Below, piece by piece: positions 15,621-30,071 of a stretch of DNA of 64,000 bases (within the stretch, counting starts at the first letter, position 1; each line of letters starts with the position of its first letter). A program made the position numbers and the translations under genes. This DNA is from Sneathiella sp. P13V-1 (GTDB lineage: Bacteria; Pseudomonadota; Alphaproteobacteria; Sneathiellales; Sneathiellaceae). The stretch covers positions 186,001 through 250,000 of the forward strand of contig NZ_WYEU01000003.1 in NCBI RefSeq assembly GCF_015143595.1. Direction: 5' to 3'. The notes under the pieces were generated by a model. The model was not told the DNA's origin. It worked only from the letters and a program-made list of their open reading frames with translations, and searched no databases.

Positions 15621-15746
15621 ATGTGCCGCACCACCATAGCCGTCGATTGTATGAAATCTCTGTGGCCTGACAAGTCAGGTGGGAGCCGATTTAACAGGAC
15701 CACGATCCAATCAGGGATTAGCCCCCCAGATTTCGTTATTGGCCCC
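15621..15746 (-). ncRNA. ssrS: probable 6S RNA (SsrS)
   Basis: The roughly 200-bp zapA/5-formyl-THF ligase gap is the standard position of 6S RNA in proteobacteria. On the minus strand a TATAGT -10-like box (15753-15758) precedes a GC-rich segment starting near 15746. GAAATCT (15728-15734) can pair with AGATTTC (15653-15659), enclosing about 70 bases that contain the perfect inverted repeat CCTGACTTGTCAGG. The 3' part GGTGGTGCGGCAC resembles 6S 3' arms. The ends are approximate and I could not fold or model-match it. Confidence 0.5.
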
Positions 15747-15791
15747 AGGATTACTATAATCTGACGCACAAGGCAGTGCAGCAGGCGTTAC

Positions 15792-22822: not shown

Positions 22823-23386
22823 ATGAAAATTAACGGCAATGCAATTCGTCCTGGCAACGTAATTGAGCATAAAGGTGGCCTTTGGGTCGCAGTTAAAATT
22901 CAACATACCCAGCCTGGTAAAGGCGGCGCGTACCTGCAGGTAGAGCTTAAAAACCTGCGCGATGGCACAAAACTGAATGAACGTTTCCGTTCTTCTGAAA
23001 CTGTTGAACGTGCGCGTCTGGAACAAAAAGACCACCAATTCCTGTTTGCGGATGATGATTTCTTCACATTCATGAATGTTGAGGATTATGAACAGGTTAC
23101 AATTGCTGCAGACCTTGTTGGTGATAAAGCTCAGTTCCTGCAAGATGGGATGCAGGTTGAAATCGAATTCTACGAAGATGAAGCCTTGAACGTTCTTCTT
23201 CCGGAAAATGTCACACTGGAAATCTCTGAAACTGAACCTACAGTAAAAGGTCAGACAGCAGCATCTTCCTACAAGCCTGCTATTTTGGAAAATGGCATGC
23301 GCATTATGGTTCCGCCTTTCTGTAACACAGGCGAGAAAATCGTCGTTAACACAGAAACAGCTGAATATTCTAAACGGGCGGACTAA
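22823..23386 (+). CDS. efp: translation elongation factor P
   Basis: Relieves ribosome stalling at polyproline. Three beta-barrel domains over 187 residues. The modification loop reads [13 protein letters not shown] with Lys at about 33 (HTQPGKGGA), the residue that carries beta-lysine or related modification. C-terminal [20 protein letters not shown]-type motif is present ([16 protein letters not shown]). TolA (proline-rich) and the KP-rich protein at 24424 are potential clients within the window; that is inference. Confidence 0.97.
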
Positions 23387-23431: not shown

Positions 23432-24232
23432 ATGGCTCGTAAAACACCACTCATAACCGTAATGGAAAATGCCGCGCGCAAAGCCGCACGCAAACTACTC
23501 CGCGACTTCAACGAGGTGGAGAACCTGCAGGTATCTCGAAAGGGTCCAGCTGACTTTGTCAGTAACGCCGACGTTGGCGCGGAAAAACTCATTCGCGAAG
23601 AACTGGAATATGCACGTCCGGATTTCGGATTTAAGCTGGAAGAAGGGGGAGAAATTCCAGCTAAAGACGGAAAAAGCTATTGGGTTATTGATCCACTGGA
23701 CGGAACAACCAACTTCCTGCATGGCATGCCACACTTCGCCATTTCCATCGCACTGATGGAAGGTAAAGAAATTCTGGCTGGTCTTATTCTGGATCCAGTG
23801 AAAGATGAACTTTTTTGGGCAGCAAAAGGTGAAGGCGCCTTTGTTAACAACCAGCGCCTTCGTGTATCCGGTCGCAACCGTATGGCCGATTGCGTTTTTG
23901 CAACAGGTATCCCTTTCCTCGGCAAACCGGGCCACGAAACATTTTTGCGAGAAGCTCATGAAATCATGGCTGTCTCTGCAGGTATTCGTCGCTTCGGTGC
24001 CGCTTCCCTTGATCTTGCCTATGTGGCAGCGGGTCGTTTCGATGGCTACTGGGAGCGCGGGCTTTCAGCATGGGACCTTGCCGCCGGTATCATCATCGTG
24101 CGTGAAGCTGGTGGGTTCGTCACCCAGATCGATGGCGGTGAAAGAATGTTGGAAAAAGGCGATATTCTTGCCTCCAACAGCGAGATTAATTCTCAAATGA
24201 GCGAAGCTCTTCGCCGCGCTCGCAAAAAGTAA
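23432..24232 (+). CDS. suhB: inositol monophosphatase family protein SuhB
   Basis: Mg-dependent phosphatase of inositol-1-phosphate and related substrates; in enterics also a transcription antitermination factor. Metal motifs: EEGG (about 70-73), WVIDPLDGTTNFLHG (about 85-99) and WDLAAGIIIVREAGG (about 210-224). The 266-residue length is standard. It follows efp by 45 bp. Confidence 0.95.
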   Translation: MARKTPLITVMENAARKAARKLLRDFNEVENLQVSRKGPADFVSNADVGAEKLIREELEYARPDFGFKLEEGGEIPAKDGKSYWVIDPLDGTTNFLHGMPHFAISIALMEGKEILAGLILDPVKDELFWAAKGEGAFVNNQRLRVSGRNRMADCVFATGIPFLGKPGHETFLREAHEIMAVSAGIRRFGAASLDLAYVAAGRFDGYWERGLSAWDLAAGIIIVREAGGFVTQIDGGERMLEKGDILASNSEINSQMSEALRRARKK

Positions 24233-24244
24233 GCAATATTAGCT

Positions 24245-24281
24245 GCGCGGGACAACCTCACTTAAAAGTTGTCCCGTGCGC
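24245..24281 (+). terminator. hairpin after suhB, no U-tract
   Basis: GGGACAAC (24249-24256) pairs with GTTGTCCC (24268-24275), extended by GCGC/GCGC across a two-base bulge. It lies 13 bp after the suhB stop. Without a T run it is not a classic intrinsic terminator; it may be an RNA-stabilising or Rho-associated structure. Confidence 0.45.
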
Positions 24282-24423
24282 ACCGCTAAGTTATTGTTTC
24301 CCTCAGCATTCACGAGTGCCCTCAACTTGTCATAATCATAAAGTAGACAAGGGCACTTCATCGGAGCACGTGTTCGCGGCCATATGGTAGCGCGCGCAAG
24401 TAATTGTTCAGGGGGTGCCAGAA

Positions 24424-25521
24424 ATGGCAAGCGGTAACAAAACTGCATTGGGAAAATTCAAGGCCACGTTGGTAATCACGACCGTTGCGGCCGCTTCCAG
24501 TTTATCTTTTTCAACATCAGTAAATGCGCAAACCGTCATTATTGGCGGCGGAAATGATCGTCCGGTGGTGGTCAACTACCCCCCGGCACCAGCTTCTCCT
24601 TATGGACAACCCGTCTATCCGTCTTCAGGAACTGCGACTGCGGGATCGGACTATTCAAAGGGCGCGCGCATTATATCAGGCGACGAGGTGATTGTTCTCA
24701 CACCGCCAAGCGAGCAGAAAAAGAAAGCGAAGCGCGTCAAAAAGATCGCAAAAACAACTACACCTGAAAAAGTCACAGAACCTAAGAAAAAAGTAGCCGC
24801 TGCAAAACCGGCTCCAAAGAAAGTCACAGAACCGAAACAGAGCCCCCCGGTTCCGGCGCCAAAAGTCGCTGAAGTCAAGAAACCTGCGCCTACGCCAGTA
24901 CCTGAACCGAAAAAAGTAGAAGCCACTGCCGCTAAAAAACTGGTGGAACCCTCTGAACCAGCAAAAAAAGAGATGGCGGAGGTAAAACCGGCAAAACCGA
25001 AGATAGAGACTAAACCAGAAGCGATAGCAGAAAAGCCCAAAGAGGTTGCCAAGGCACCTAAAACACCAGAGCCGGCAAAACCAGTTGAAGCCAAGCCCAC
25101 CCCGAAAAAAATCGTACCTGTTCCTAAGTCTGAAGAAACACAGGTGGCCTCACTTGAAAAAGAAAGTGAAGTCAGCGCGAAAACGTCAAAGATTCCGGAG
25201 ATTAAGCCTGAGGTAGACAAAGCTGCACACCAACTCATCTTTGAAGAAGGCAAAACCGATCTTCCAAGCAACGCGAATTCTCTTTTGAAGGAACTATCTT
25301 CAACTGTTGGTGGGACACAGGATCGTATTCAGCTGGTCGCCTATGCAAAGGCAAGCAGTATTGGTCGGGCACGCCGCATTTCGCTTGGTCGTGCTCTCGC
25401 CATTCGTGAAAAGCTGATGAATATGGGTATTCCAAATAATCGAATTGAAGTTCGCGCCCTTGGCGCACCAGAGGGCGATACACCGCCTGACAGGGTAGAT
25501 CTTAAAATTATAACGAGATAG
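24424..25521 (+). CDS. secreted OmpA-like protein with Lys/Pro-rich linker
   Basis: A 365-residue exported protein. ATG 24424 is preferred (AGGGGG eight bases upstream); a GTG three codons earlier is possible. A signal peptide (about 1-38, ending VNAQ) precedes a short Gly/Pro segment, a long Lys/Ala/Pro/Glu-rich spacer (about 90-260) and a C-terminal OmpA/MotB-like domain (about 270-365; LIFEEGKTDLPSNANSLLKEL and ARRISLGRALAIREKLMNMGI). It would sit in the periplasm and bind peptidoglycan. It is three bases from the MotA-like gene and clearly in operon with the next two. I infer that it is a partner of that putative stator. Confidence 0.85.
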   Translation: MASGNKTALGKFKATLVITTVAAASSLSFSTSVNAQTVIIGGGNDRPVVVNYPPAPASPYGQPVYPSSGTATAGSDYSKGARIISGDEVIVLTPPSEQKKKAKRVKKIAKTTTPEKVTEPKKKVAAAKPAPKKVTEPKQSPPVPAPKVAEVKKPAPTPVPEPKKVEATAAKKLVEPSEPAKKEMAEVKPAKPKIETKPEAIAEKPKEVAKAPKTPEPAKPVEAKPTPKKIVPVPKSEETQVASLEKESEVSAKTSKIPEIKPEVDKAAHQLIFEEGKTDLPSNANSLLKELSSTVGGTQDRIQLVAYAKASSIGRARRISLGRALAIREKLMNMGIPNNRIEVRALGAPEGDTPPDRVDLKIITR

Positions 25522-25524
25522 CGT

Positions 25525-26727
25525 ATGAGCACATTATCCAGCTTTGGCTCAGCCCAGCAGACGGCGGCCCCGAAACTTAATCGTCCTCGGCGGCATCTGA
25601 TCCGAATGGGTGTCTTCTTGGCAATTGTTATTGGCATTTCAGTTTTGCTTTTTGCCCCAGCAGCCGAAGCGTTTAATGCAAATCCTTACCTGAACGGTGT
25701 GATCCTTCTCACCTTGCTGTTTGGTATCGCTTACATGTTCCGTCAGGTCCTAATCTTGAACGGTGAAGTAACCTGGACAGAAGATCTTGCCCGGCTTGAA
25801 GGGGGCGGCATTTCTTTACAAAGCTCACCGACACTCTTGTCTCCTCTAGCCACAATTATCGGGGATAGCAATGGGCCGCTGCGAATGACGGCGGTTACCA
25901 TGAATACCATTTTGGACAGTGTCAGCGCCCGTCTGGATGAAGGCCGTGATATTTCACGCTACCTGATTAATGTGCTTATCTTTCTTGGTCTGCTGGGAAC
26001 TTTCTGGGGCCTTCTGGAAACTGTTGGATCCGTTGGAGATGCTATCTCAACCTTAAATGTCGGAGGGCAGGATTTCTCCAAGGTATTTGACGAACTTAAA
26101 ATCGGCCTGGAGAAGCCATTGGCCGGAATGGCCATTGCCTTTTCATCTTCCTTATTCGGTCTCTCTGGGTCGCTAATCCTTGGCTTTCTGGATATGCAGG
26201 CAGGACAAGCCCAGAACCGCTTCTACATGGATCTGGAAGAGTGGCTGACAACAGTCACAAAATTTGCGCCTTCTGGTCCTGTAGGCCTATCTGAGGTCGC
26301 AGATCAGAGCGTTCCGGCTTATGTCAGTGCGTTGCTGGAGCAAACTGCTGAAAGCCTTGACGGGCTGCAACGCACTCTGGCACGTGGAGAAGACAAAAGA
26401 AGCCATGGAGATGCTGCCATGATCACGGTGAGTGAACGCCTTGCCGCCCTTACCGATCAGATGCGCGCAGAGCAAGACTTGATGGTCAAACTTGTGGAAG
26501 GACAGATGGAATTGAAGCCTGTCCTGCAGCGTATGGCTCAAGTTCAGGAACAGGGCGGCCTTGATCAGGCCAGCCGTAACCACCTTCGAAACCTGGATGT
26601 CTATATGGCGCGCCTCTTGGAAGAAATGGCTGATGGACGTAACCAGCTAAGCCAGGAAGTCAGAAGTGAAATCAAACTGCTCACACGGACCATCGCGGCT
26701 ATCGCCGAAGAAGATCGTCGCAGCTAA
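25525..26727 (+). CDS. MotA/TolQ/ExbB-like membrane protein
   Basis: A 400-residue inner-membrane protein with about four hydrophobic segments (roughly 28-48, 58-76, 146-170 and 197-222). The motif LGLLGTFWGLLETVG and the following GLEKPLAGMAIAFSSSLFGLSGS match the proton-channel core of the MotA/TolQ/ExbB superfamily. A long cytoplasmic C-terminal helical region (about 240-400) follows. It resembles neither MotA nor TolQ in length or tail. With the next gene it has the make-up of a 5:2 ion-driven stator. The driven machine is unknown; no flagellar genes are nearby. Confidence 0.85.
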   Translation: MSTLSSFGSAQQTAAPKLNRPRRHLIRMGVFLAIVIGISVLLFAPAAEAFNANPYLNGVILLTLLFGIAYMFRQVLILNGEVTWTEDLARLEGGGISLQSSPTLLSPLATIIGDSNGPLRMTAVTMNTILDSVSARLDEGRDISRYLINVLIFLGLLGTFWGLLETVGSVGDAISTLNVGGQDFSKVFDELKIGLEKPLAGMAIAFSSSLFGLSGSLILGFLDMQAGQAQNRFYMDLEEWLTTVTKFAPSGPVGLSEVADQSVPAYVSALLEQTAESLDGLQRTLARGEDKRSHGDAAMITVSERLAALTDQMRAEQDLMVKLVEGQMELKPVLQRMAQVQEQGGLDQASRNHLRNLDVYMARLLEEMADGRNQLSQEVRSEIKLLTRTIAAIAEEDRRS

Positions 26728-26747
26728 CGGCCGGGAGATAGGGCAGC

Positions 26748-28130
26748 ATGGCGCGTAGGAAAAACGGACAAAGGGCCAATTATGAGATATGGCCGGGTTT
26801 TGTGGATGCTCTTACTACATTACTGCTTGTCATCATCTTCCTGCTGGTCGTTTTCGTTCTGGCACAATTTTTCCTGTCTCAAGCCCTATCTGGCAGGGAT
26901 GCTGCACTTGAAAAGCTCAATCAGCAGGTTGCTGAACTTGCCGACCTTCTCGCCCTTGAAAAAGAGACAAATGTCTCCTTGAAGCAGGAAATTGCGGCCC
27001 TCAACATTACCCTGACCCAATCCAATCAGGATCGGGACAACGCCATCATCCAATTGGATACCATTACAGCGCGCGCGTTGGCGGCGGAGGAAGAGCGAGA
27101 TGAACTGACCTTGCTTCTGCAAAAGCAGGAACAGAAAACGGCTGATACAGAGGCCGCTCTCAAAGAAGCGGAAGAGCGAATTAAACTTCGTGAAGATGAG
27201 ATTGCCGCGAATCTGAAAGACATTGAAAGCCTGAAACGAGACATTTCTTCTCTTGAGGAACTTCGCAAGAAACTTGAAAGCGAAGTCGGTGCATTGGCTG
27301 CGAGGATCAAAGAAAAAGATACAGAAATTGGCGAAGTCCGCGATCGCAGTAAGGAACTGGAAGCAAAACTAGCAGATGAGCAAGAACGCACACTTCTGGC
27401 ACAAAAAGATATTGAAGATCGCGAAACCAAGCTCGCTGAGTTACAGACTCTGTATCTGCAAACCCAAGACAACCTGACCGCGGAAGAGAAGATTTCTTCT
27501 GAAGCCCAAGCCCAGGTACAGCTGCTCAACGTGCAATTGTCTGCTTTGCGTGAACAATTGGCCCGCATTGAAAGCGCACTGGAAATTGCTGAGCAAAAAG
27601 ACATAGAGCAAAAAGCGCAAATTGCGGATCTTGGCCGTCGCCTCAATCAGGCGCTCGCCCAAAAAGTTCAAGAATTACAACAGTACCGATCAGATTTCTT
27701 TGGTCGCTTAAGAGAAGTATTGAAGAACCGTCCAGGCGTTAGCGTCGTTGGTGATCGTTTTGTCTTCCAGTCCGAAGTTCTGTTCGGCCTGGGTGAGGCA
27801 GAATTGGGGGAGCAAGGCCGTCAAAGTATGCGCGCCTTTGCACAAACCCTGCTGGAGATTTCCTCCACCATTCCTGATGATATTGATTGGGTGTTGCGTG
27901 TCGACGGCCACACGGACAAACAACCCATCAGCACGGTGCGTTTCCCATCCAACTGGGAGCTTTCCATGGCCCGTGCGTTGTCTGTCACCAAGTACCTGGT
28001 AGCAAGGGGTGTCCCCCCTACCCGACTGGCCCCTACGGGCTTTGGACCTTATCAGCCGCTTGATCCACGAGATGATGAAATCGCGTTTTTGAGAAATCGC
28101 AGAATTGAATTGAAGCTGACGGAACGCTGA
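26748..28130 (+). CDS. MotB/OmpA-like protein with long periplasmic coiled coil
   Basis: A 460-residue partner of the MotA-like protein. A single N-terminal helix (about 19-42) begins WPGFVDALTTLLL with Asp at about 20, placed like the proton-binding Asp of MotB (FAD/FVD). Residues about 45-315 are one long charged coiled coil (Glu/Lys/Leu heptads), far longer than in MotB or TolR. A C-terminal OmpA/MotB peptidoglycan-binding domain (about 325-458) contains VDGHTDKQPIS, WELSMARALSVTKYLVARGV and NRRIELKL. It ends 9 bp from the convergent ABC exporter. Confidence 0.87.
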   Translation: MARRKNGQRANYEIWPGFVDALTTLLLVIIFLLVVFVLAQFFLSQALSGRDAALEKLNQQVAELADLLALEKETNVSLKQEIAALNITLTQSNQDRDNAIIQLDTITARALAAEEERDELTLLLQKQEQKTADTEAALKEAEERIKLREDEIAANLKDIESLKRDISSLEELRKKLESEVGALAARIKEKDTEIGEVRDRSKELEAKLADEQERTLLAQKDIEDRETKLAELQTLYLQTQDNLTAEEKISSEAQAQVQLLNVQLSALREQLARIESALEIAEQKDIEQKAQIADLGRRLNQALAQKVQELQQYRSDFFGRLREVLKNRPGVSVVGDRFVFQSEVLFGLGEAELGEQGRQSMRAFAQTLLEISSTIPDDIDWVLRVDGHTDKQPISTVRFPSNWELSMARALSVTKYLVARGVPPTRLAPTGFGPYQPLDPRDDEIAFLRNRRIELKLTER

Positions 28131-28139
28131 TCTGCGTGT

Positions 28140-29951
28140 TCACGCGTCCAGCGCTTCCCGTCCTGTATCAAACTGAAGACGCGCTAGCTTGGCATATAAA
28201 CCGCCTTCTTTCATCAACTGCTCATGTGTCCCCTGCGTCACTACATGCCCCTTATCCAGGACGATGATACGGTCCGCATTGAGAACAGTCGCCAACCTGT
28301 GGGCAATTACAAGTGTGGTACGCCCCTTCATCAAGTTCTCAAGAGCGCCTTGAACGAGGCTCTCACTTTCAGCATCCAACGCGCTTGTCGCTTCATCCAG
28401 CAATAGTATTGCCGGATCACGCAAAATCGCACGGGCAATGGCGATACGCTGTTTCTGACCACCAGAGATCTTGATACCTTTTTCACCAAATTCAGTATCA
28501 AACCCGTTCGGCATTTGCATGATGAAATCATAGGCTTCTGCGGCTTTCGCGGCGGCAATCATTTCTTCTTCCGTCGCGTCCGGGCGGCCATACATGATGT
28601 TGCTGCGGGCACTGCTTGCGAAGATCGCCGGCTCCTGCGGCACAAGTCCAGTAAGTGCACGCACCTCTCTTGGATCCGCATCCTTGATATCAATGCCGTT
28701 TACGCGGATCGCTCCTACTTCTGGATCATAGAAGCGCAGCAGCATCTGGAATACGGTTGTCTTACCGGCACCGCTTGGACCCACGATTGCAACTGTTTCG
28801 CCTTGTTTGATTTCGAGATTGAAATCATTAAGAGCTGCCATATTTTTGCGGGTCGGATAATGGAATGTCACGTGATCAAATACCACACCATGGGTCAGGT
28901 CGGCTGGAATAGGTGTTGGGTTTTCGGGGCTTTTGATCTCTGGTTCTTCCTGTAGAAGATCCATCAAACGCTCAGATGCGCCCGCGGCGCGCTGCAATTC
29001 CCCCCAGATCTCGCTGAGGGATCCCATGGATCCGGCAACGACAATCGCATAGAACACGAAGGAACCGAGCGTTCCCGCAGACATAACACCATTTACAACA
29101 TCTGTTGCACCGCTCCACAACACAAAATCAATCGCACCAAAGACAAGTAAAATAACTAAAGCCGTCAGCCAGGCGCGGGCGCGGATACGTGCGACCGCTA
29201 TTTTGAAGCTATCCTCGACCGCTCCACTAAATGTCAGTCGATCCAAATCTTCATGTGTATAGGCTTGGGATGTCTGAATGGCCTGCAGACTTTCATCTGC
29301 CTGAACACTGATGGTCGCAATGCTTTCCTGATTTTCACGGCTCAGCTTGCGGACTTTACGGCCAAATACAATAATTGGTACGACAATACATGGGACAACC
29401 AACAAAACCATGCCGGCAAGTTTCGGACTTGTGTAAATAAGCAGTGCCAGACCACCCACGAATGAAAGTACATTGCGAAGCGCCACGGAAATGGACGATC
29501 CAATAACTGTTTGAATAAGTGTGGTATCCGTAGTGAGACGTGAAAGAACTTCGCCGGTACGCGTAACTTCAAAGAAAGCGGGGCTGAGTTTCAGGATGTG
29601 ACTGAAAACTGCGTTCCTGATATCTGCAACGACACGTTCTCCGATCCATGAGACCAGAAAGTATCTGGCGAAAGACGCAACGGCCAGACCGACAACAACA
29701 ATCATTAATCCCAGGAAATACTGGCCAAGATCTTCTGAGCCCGCCGAGAAGCCATAGTCTAGCAGAAACTTGACTGCCTGACCAATCAGCAAGAGGGCCG
29801 CGGAGGCAAACACAAGCGCAACCAAAGCACCTGTAACCTGCCATTTATAGGGCTTTACGAATCGAATGAGATTCCGAAGTTGCGACACTGGGGCTTTACT
29901 CGTTTTCCCCTCGCTATCCGGGTCGGTTTGTACACTACTGCTATCAGTCAC
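28140..29951 (-). CDS. ABC exporter, fused membrane and ATPase domains (MsbA/ATM-type)
   Basis: Half-transporter with six membrane helices (about 45-320) and an ATPase domain (about 350-590). Walker A GPSGAGKTT, signature SGGQKQRIAIARAILRDPAILLLDEATSALD (split here: SGGQKQR then LLLDEATSALD) and switch His (LVIAHRL) are intact. I chose the GTG at 29951 (603 residues), preceded by a GGAAAGAGAAATT ribosome-binding region; an in-frame ATG at 30053 would place the coding region inside the rpmE promoter. Substrate unknown: lipid, peptide or drug are all possible. Confidence 0.9.
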   Translation of the reverse strand: MTDSSSVQTDPDSEGKTSKAPVSQLRNLIRFVKPYKWQVTGALVALVFASAALLLIGQAVKFLLDYGFSAGSEDLGQYFLGLMIVVVGLAVASFARYFLVSWIGERVVADIRNAVFSHILKLSPAFFEVTRTGEVLSRLTTDTTLIQTVIGSSISVALRNVLSFVGGLALLIYTSPKLAGMVLLVVPCIVVPIIVFGRKVRKLSRENQESIATISVQADESLQAIQTSQAYTHEDLDRLTFSGAVEDSFKIAVARIRARAWLTALVILLVFGAIDFVLWSGATDVVNGVMSAGTLGSFVFYAIVVAGSMGSLSEIWGELQRAAGASERLMDLLQEEPEIKSPENPTPIPADLTHGVVFDHVTFHYPTRKNMAALNDFNLEIKQGETVAIVGPSGAGKTTVFQMLLRFYDPEVGAIRVNGIDIKDADPREVRALTGLVPQEPAIFASSARSNIMYGRPDATEEEMIAAAKAAEAYDFIMQMPNGFDTEFGEKGIKISGGQKQRIAIARAILRDPAILLLDEATSALDAESESLVQGALENLMKGRTTLVIAHRLATVLNADRIIVLDKGHVVTQGTHEQLMKEGGLYAKLARLQFDTGREALDA

Positions 29952-30042
29952 AATTTCTCTTTCCGAACTTGGTTTTCTGCCATCGGTTTTAAAGAATATC
30001 GTCGCTTCTACAAGAAAATTCGCAAAATAAATATATCTTTGC

Positions 30043-30071
30043 TTGCCATCCACGATAACCTTTTATATAAG
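30043..30071 (+). promoter_or_regulatory. putative housekeeping promoter of rpmE
   Basis: TTGCCA (30043-30048), 17 bases, then TATAAG (30066-30071), about 45 bp upstream of the rpmE ATG. Spacing is ideal for sigma-70. Confidence 0.55.

Follow-up and report, generated by a model that had tools for sequence, protein, structure and literature searches.

A widely conserved, uncharacterized, putative 5:2-type motor pair of the Alphaproteobacteria with a loosely associated OmpA-like neighbor

The 64,000-nucleotide stretch of Sneathiella sp. P13V-1 analyzed here (positions 186,001 to 250,000 of contig NZ_WYEU01000003.1; hereafter the window) encodes two adjoining proteins that represent a real, widely conserved and uncharacterized pair, probably a motor of the 5:2 type. 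MotAL is a MotA/TolQ/ExbB-type channel subunit of 400 amino acids (aa; 25525–26727, + strand) and MotBL is an axle subunit of the PRK09039 family (26748–28130, + strand, 460 aa). With confidence a little better than even, the two are read as a housekeeping, ion-driven 5:2 inner-membrane motor of the alphaproteobacteria that is separate from flagella, and, as part of the same explanation, the secreted OmpA-like protein encoded upstream (OmpAL; 24424–25521, + strand) is read as an accessory periplasmic protein tied to the gene neighborhood more than to the motor, and not as a core subunit. OmpAL has 365 aa when counted from the ATG at 24424 used here; the listing of open reading frames begins it at an in-frame GTG at 24415. 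The intergenic gaps are 3 base pairs (bp) between OmpAL and MotAL and 20 bp between MotAL and MotBL. A preliminary description, made from the letters of the window, had recognized the three genes at 24424–28130 as one tight unit, with which the coordinates and the Pfam and NCBIfam matches agree. Its interpretation as a stator is upheld insofar as the pair belongs to the MotA/TolQ/ExbB superfamily, is not flagellar and keeps its peptidoglycan site intact; the three-gene machine and the need for a long coil do not stand. No published function for the pair was found in the text accessible through a literature search. One review counts MotAB, ExbBD, TolQR, AglRQS and GldLM as 5:2 motors (PMC9389320), and ZorAB is described in another as a remote 5:2 motor (PMC12505986).

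The invariant Asp20 of MotBL and Thr159 and Ser209 of MotAL, taken together with the peptidoglycan site of MotBL, make a wall-anchored, ion-driven 5:2 motor the best reading. MotBL is a member of NCBIfam NF006543 (PRK09039, "peptidoglycan -binding protein") over the curated cut-off (463.4 bits, cut-off 305), a model that covers the B subunit only, carries no named function and leaves the partner and the gene neighborhood outside. The Asp that had been noted near residue 20 lies in the N-terminal hydrophobic helix, within the motif WPGFVD, and is invariant in 29 of 29 rows, as are Trp15-Pro16-Gly17, Gly387-His388-Thr389-Asp390, Arg409 and Asn450-Arg451-Arg452. The C-terminal OmpA domain (Pfam, 2.8e-13) keeps its GHTD, Arg409 and NRR intact, and its sequence suggests that it binds peptidoglycan. 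In MotAL, Thr159 and Ser209 are invariant in 46 of 46 aligned rows and align with the Thr positions of TolQ and ExbB that we take to line the pore. The pair thus has an Asp in the membrane helix of the B subunit and polar residues in the pore helices of the A subunit, residues whose roles in rotary motors we presume from the superfamily.

The predicted structures, both of single chains, are consistent with this assignment. The MotAL model (mean predicted local distance difference test score, pLDDT, 84.3) has helices at 22–41, 54–91, 123–176 and 184–245 and a helical tail at 264–399, which would lie on the cytoplasmic side. The best Foldseek match to this model was TolQ (E 9.9e-4); sequence searches of the PDB returned no superfamily member, either among all 25 rows by phmmer or among the 60 of 112 matches listed by profile. 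The MotBL model (pLDDT 80.9, predicted TM-score 0.40) consists of helices at 16–191 and 199–325 followed by an OmpA fold, with a low-confidence helix break at 190–201, where, as a guess, the coil may fold back. In homologues the distance between the Asp and GDRF motifs, determined in the 35 of 36 rows with both motifs found, ranges from 157 to 580 residues (median 279), equivalent to 24 to 87 nm as one straight helix. This spread makes a fixed straight shaft unlikely and rules out the coil as a ruler of fixed length to the peptidoglycan; together with the break in the model, it speaks against the initial proposal that an unusually long coil is needed to reach the wall.

At E 0.001, 39 of 57 alphaproteobacterial genomes, the source genome among them, contained a MotAL match, and these represent 38 of the 56 sampled families. 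MotBL was present in 38 of the 39 carriers and in none of the 18 other genomes (38/1/0/18, Fisher p = 6e-14), and conservation of the two across the class argues that the pair is more than chance. Among sampled genomes of at least 2.3 megabases (Mb), 32 of 38 carry MotAL; should the pair be another 5:2 motor, these genomes would carry a wall-anchored motor without a function found in print. The neighborhood survey took in 39 MotAL loci drawn from the 38 carriers other than the source genome (two from G053). MotBL adjoined MotAL in 35 of these loci, and in 34 of those the gap measured −4 to 74 bp. The four remaining loci comprise a contig end (L079), two genomes with MotBL on another contig (G004 and G019) and one with none at E 1e-30 (G005). 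The phosphatase gene that lies upstream in the window was present in 30 of 39 loci and efp in 28 of 39, several of the misses being contig ends. MotAL of a same-genus genome is 79% identical, and records of Sneathiella or Sneathiellales account for 9 of the 23 named loci that MotAL retrieved, the best matches among them. A profile search of 299 Pseudomonadota genomes matched 110 (rows counted by hand), 74 inside the class and 36 outside; the matched genomes measure 0.9 to 8.8 Mb and nearly always gave a single match. Close relatives occur in five genomes outside the class (E 1.5e-100 to 7.4e-141), and MotBL adjoins in all three that were fetched; of the other outside genomes, 16 have frames of 649–1117 aa and 15 have frames of 281–378 aa (best E 1.9e-17 to 1.4e-4). 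Separately, in L149 (G266:C23:91000-102000) efp and an OmpA-like gene are accompanied by a divergent MotAL of 563 aa, and the nine other genomes of its family (f11) in the 299-genome search show no MotAL match.

The presence of MotAL is independent of flagella. FlgH was matched in 33 of the 57 genomes, with 23 carriers of MotAL having it and 16 lacking it, and 10 non-carriers having it and 8 lacking it (Fisher p = 1.0). Additionally, MotAL stands apart from flagellar MotA in trees, with the reservation that in one alignment an approximately unbiased (AU) test did not reject joining the two (p 0.18).

In the mechanism proposed here, a MotBL dimer would form the axle, Asp20 in its membrane helix would take the ion, the coil would rise into the periplasm and the OmpA domain would grip the peptidoglycan. 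A MotAL pentamer would form the wheel, with Thr159 and Ser209 in its pore ring. In MotAB, which has a peptidoglycan-bound OmpA-type axle, the output is on the cytoplasmic side of the wheel. Because the MotBL axle would likewise be anchored in the wall, as in MotAB and ZorAB, the MotAL wheel should be the part that moves, and the output would most likely be on the cytoplasmic side, through the C-terminal helical tail where present. An output of this kind has been proposed for ZorAB in PMC11890865, according to which Zorya requires both the binding of ZorB to peptidoglycan and the cytoplasmic tail of ZorA. The likely job of the motor would be to link wall state, while the envelope grows, with a partner in the cytoplasm or the membrane, and the early suggestion that it may drive something in the envelope is kept in this conditional form.

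Several observations weigh against the motor reading. MotAL reaches the Pfam model MotA_ExbB (PF01618) only at its threshold (22.9 bits, exactly the cut-off of 22.9, and 23.3 bits in a second scan). The structural matches of its model, at Z 9.9–12.2 over 175–200 aligned residues to ExbB, TolQ and ZorA chains and Z 8.0–10.0 to MotA/PomA chains, stand beside unrelated helical proteins that reach Z 9.7 in the same comparison, and the comparison tool warns that for helical models a Z below about 13 may mean only a common arrangement. The tail after the fourth transmembrane helix is short (28–107 residues) in 7 of 35 measurable rows, being 147–246 residues in the other 28, so it cannot be a universal output. 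No MotAL match was obtained at E 0.001 in 18 of the 57 genomes, six of them of at least 2.3 Mb. Finally, the gene pair, its invariant residues, its predicted fold, its co-occurrence and its independence from flagella are what the analysis shows; stoichiometry, ion flow, rotation, output and job are inferred.

OmpAL is less firmly part of the system. It has a signal peptide (by eye), no evident membrane anchor and a C-terminal OmpA-like domain (Pfam, 2.4e-10, 41.1 bits), and the Lys/Pro spacer that had been remarked upon is borne out by 43 Lys and 39 Pro among the 234 residues from 37 to 270. The Asp of GHTD, which we take to be the usual peptidoglycan-binding residue, is replaced in 24 of 25 OmpAL domains (by Lys in the window protein and Glu in L085; L088 alone keeps it); the Arg of LSxxRA is kept in all 25. 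OmpAL lies upstream of the motor in 29 of the 39 surveyed loci, 28 of them by profile within 1.5 kb (one with another gene between) and one by phmmer at a contig end. It was not found at the other 10, of which one (L099) is at a contig end without room upstream. The domain profile also matches genomes that lack the motor, and six such places were fetched. In five of the 18 motor-lacking genomes (G003, G009, G021, G030 and G031) OmpAL follows the phosphatase gene with no motor gene in the stretch; for G031 the evidence is where the profile match lies, since a longer frame hid the OmpAL frame in the frame listing. The sixth place (G016) is a contig end. In Sinorhizobium meliloti Ak57 the phosphatase, MotA, MotB and ABC genes stand in order and no OmpA gene is annotated in the 314-bp gap between phosphatase and MotA. 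An obligate third subunit is rejected because OmpAL was not found at 10 of 39 motor loci and persists in 5 of 18 motor-lacking genomes, and of the three-gene association first described it is the joint occurrence of MotAL and MotBL that holds up. The occurrence of the pair in S. meliloti makes it testable in a laboratory organism.

The chief interest of the pair, apart from its breadth, is a possible link to the Zorya defense systems. Of the 16 long matches outside the class, nine were retrieved with their surroundings (L135–L142 and L148). PADLOC identified three of the four scanned as ZorA type III (E 1.5e-245 or better) and the fourth as a weak ZorA2-type; of the three, two had a MotB neighbor scanned, and both neighbors are ZorB3. 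DUF3348 was found in one of two upstream neighbors scanned (the L137 neighbor in the same place had no PADLOC match at 0.001), under the PADLOC name ZorG3; this type III accessory protein is named ZorF in PMC8565338. The MotBL profile located a MotB neighbor of 213–225 aa in seven of the eight loci L135–L142. On two small sets of frames, the MotAL profile scored L135–L142 at 9e-13 to 3e-17, a pair of very long ZorA-like frames at about 1e-6, ZorA2 at 7.5e-6 and ZorA1 at 1.9e-4 at best, TolQ at 0.0027 and MotA and ExbB at 0.07 or worse. Of the two frames each of ZorA2 and ZorA1, L160 (ZorA2) and L173 (ZorA1) had no listed match. When a profile of 20 MotAL rows was compared with profiles of the other groups, ZorA3 ranked first (9.4e-14, 7 rows), followed by ZorA1/ZorA2 with the long frames (2.3e-11, 6 rows), TolQ/ExbB (6.3e-6, 9 rows) and flagellar MotA, the lowest of the four A-subunit groups (4.7e-5, 3 rows), a ranking that the unequal group sizes may affect. 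In larger alignments MotAL matched ZorA3 at 1.3e-14 and MotBL matched ZorB3 at 5.2e-22, with the MotBL match confined to the OmpA domain.

In five of six careful A-subunit trees MotAL joined ZorA3, two of them with starred support. The first placed the two on one side (99/92, starred), a core-column tree did so at 87/89, and three trees from further alignments did so at 94/82, 91/97 and 99/96 (starred). The tree of columns 55–245 instead placed MotAL with TolQ/ExbB (90/77), and constraining MotAL to group with ZorA3 in that alignment was not rejected (p-AU 0.29). By AU test, none of the following groupings was rejected: MotAL with TolQ/ExbB (p 0.19, 0.25 and 0.55, the constrained tree in the last case exceeding the free one by 1.3 log units), MotAL with ZorA1/2 and relatives (p 0.077, 0.46 and 0.35), and all ZorA types together without MotAL (p 0.12). 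Quick trees, supplemented with nine TolQ/ExbB-type frames out of 17 taken from 29 loci, joined MotAL and ZorA3 in one alignment, and holding them together beat the free tree in the other two. It should be noted that 8 of 45 rows were dropped before the core-column and columns 55–245 trees and 9 of 45 before the quick trees, and that four more (two mis-extracted or short TolQ-type frames and two long branches) were dropped before the three further-alignment trees. A B-subunit tree was unresolved and not used. The OmpA domain of MotBL is about as close to the MotD model (3.2e-28; MotS 4.4e-23) as to PRK09040 (4.4e-24), the model that ZorB3-type proteins match, so the B subunit does not settle kinship.

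These sequence comparisons favor a kinship of MotAL with ZorA3. A bolder and tentative proposal, which we hold to be possible and on balance doubtful, is that MotAL-MotBL is the housekeeping sister of the type III Zorya motor, one ancestral wall-anchored motor having given rise to an envelope machine in much of the alphaproteobacteria and a defense motor in other Pseudomonadota. If true, Zorya could be studied as a repurposed sensor of wall state, and the pair offers a way to ask both what wall-anchored motors do without a flagellum and from what origin the motor of Zorya arose. MotAL and ZorA3 share the pore motif P-x-x-G-x-x-x-AF-x-x-S and the peptidoglycan motif of the B subunit is kept; conversely, the three PADLOC-confirmed ZorA3 are 675–958 aa long against 400 aa for MotAL, and the seven ZorB3-type proteins lack the long coil of MotBL.

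A different division of labor, in which the motor moves the MotBL coil (perhaps folded back at 190–201) and passes force to the outer membrane through OmpAL, its Lys/Pro spacer acting as a linker of the TolA/TonB kind, is unlikely. The frequent upstream position of OmpAL, the spacer's resemblance to those linkers, the fold that MotAL has in common with TolQ and ExbB, and the columns 55–245 tree and 0.55 AU result given above would all suit such a transducer. However, OmpAL has a signal peptide in place of an evident anchor, occurs where there is no motor and is not seen beside the motor elsewhere, as in S. meliloti Ak57; an intact peptidoglycan site on MotBL would brake a moving axle; and the profile comparison ranks TolQ/ExbB below ZorA3. 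With TolQ/TolR and ExbB/ExbD, MotAL-MotBL shares the fold of the A subunit and two polar pore positions; it differs from them in that the long coil of MotBL leads to a terminal OmpA domain and that no membrane-anchored TolA/TonB-type partner is seen beside the pair, nor are TolA, TolB and Pal.

Less probable again is a wall-gated leak channel without rotation, opened by strain in the wall and signaling by the ion flow itself. The same conserved residues would be needed, and some lineages have only a short MotAL tail; against it, the residues that are invariant in axle and ring are those of the rotary superfamily, and the analyses here do not separate leak from rotation.

That the pair is a Zorya-type phage-defense motor, or the remnant of one, is very unlikely despite the type III ZorA identity of strong outside matches (three of the four scanned), the profile ranking and the trees. 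Expression of type III Zorya in E. coli lowered plaquing (PMC8565338). Membership is rejected on the accessory genes: as first described, no Zorya accessory or flagellar gene was found among the 10 flanking proteins scanned, and DUF3348 was not found in the source genome and reached the cut-off in 1 of 57 class genomes (25.4 bits, cut-off 25). The pair keeps a conserved position next to core genes and a single copy per genome, which is not how a defense island behaves; phage records gave no MotAL match, and a plasmid collection gave only five, all on replicons of 3.5–4.6 Mb.

A flagellar MotAB paralogue serving as an alternative stator, which would share the superfamily, the Asp in the B helix and an OmpA-type domain that scores well against MotD and MotS, is rejected as scarcely credible, given the independence from FlgH, the separation of MotAL from MotA in trees (with the AU reservation above) and a separate flagellar-type pair elsewhere in the source genome (G000:C2:340647-342004), whose MotA groups with that of E. 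coli; such paralogy had been named in the preliminary description as a ground for refutation, which for the pair did not come about.

Three further sets of relatives deserve record in their own right. ZorB type III occurs in 30 of 60 genomes of family f107 (centre G257), and in 29 of 34 of those of at least 4.4 Mb (hand count), near-core behavior that is unusual for a defense system. L172 and L173 hold two ZorAB-like gene pairs per cluster (590 or 677 + 236 aa; 688 or 862 + 219 aa). L146 and L147 (family f79) encode MotA-like proteins of 328 and 352 aa, the latter with weak ZorA-type scores only, and in L147 the MotA-like gene is followed by a 260-aa gene without an NCBIfam match.

The motor genes of the window lie downstream of thiE, efp (elongation factor P; 22823–23386, + strand) and an inositol monophosphatase family gene (23432–24232, + strand), all assigned by Pfam. 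An inverted repeat between the phosphatase gene and OmpAL (24245–24281, + strand) was spotted by eye; no T run lies 3' of it and it is absent from the terminator-scan list. Convergent to the unit is an ATP-binding cassette (ABC) transporter with membrane and ATPase domains by Pfam (28140–30053, − strand), a frequent downstream neighbor in the survey. It gave the only PADLOC matches among the flanking proteins (mad3, mad8 and AriA, all ATPase-type models), which are taken as general ATPase resemblance. The tol-pal genes are separate, as had been stated, at 4.7–8.8 kb of the window, where Pfam identifies TolQ (MotA_ExbB), ExbD/TolR, TolB and a Pal-type gene of the OmpA family; the gene that occupies the position of TolA, between TolR and TolB, gave no match to Pfam at 0.001. 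A 6S RNA is encoded at 15624–15782 on the − strand (Rfam RF00013, 57.4 bits). Elsewhere in the source genome (G000:C6:79000-87000; L175), a 258-aa TolQ-like protein adjoins proteins of 356 and 317 aa with similar N-terminal hydrophobic helices containing Asp, the former matching VWA_2 (30.4 bits, cut-off 27), an arrangement that recalls the paired TPH-vWA motor partners described in PMC12204202.

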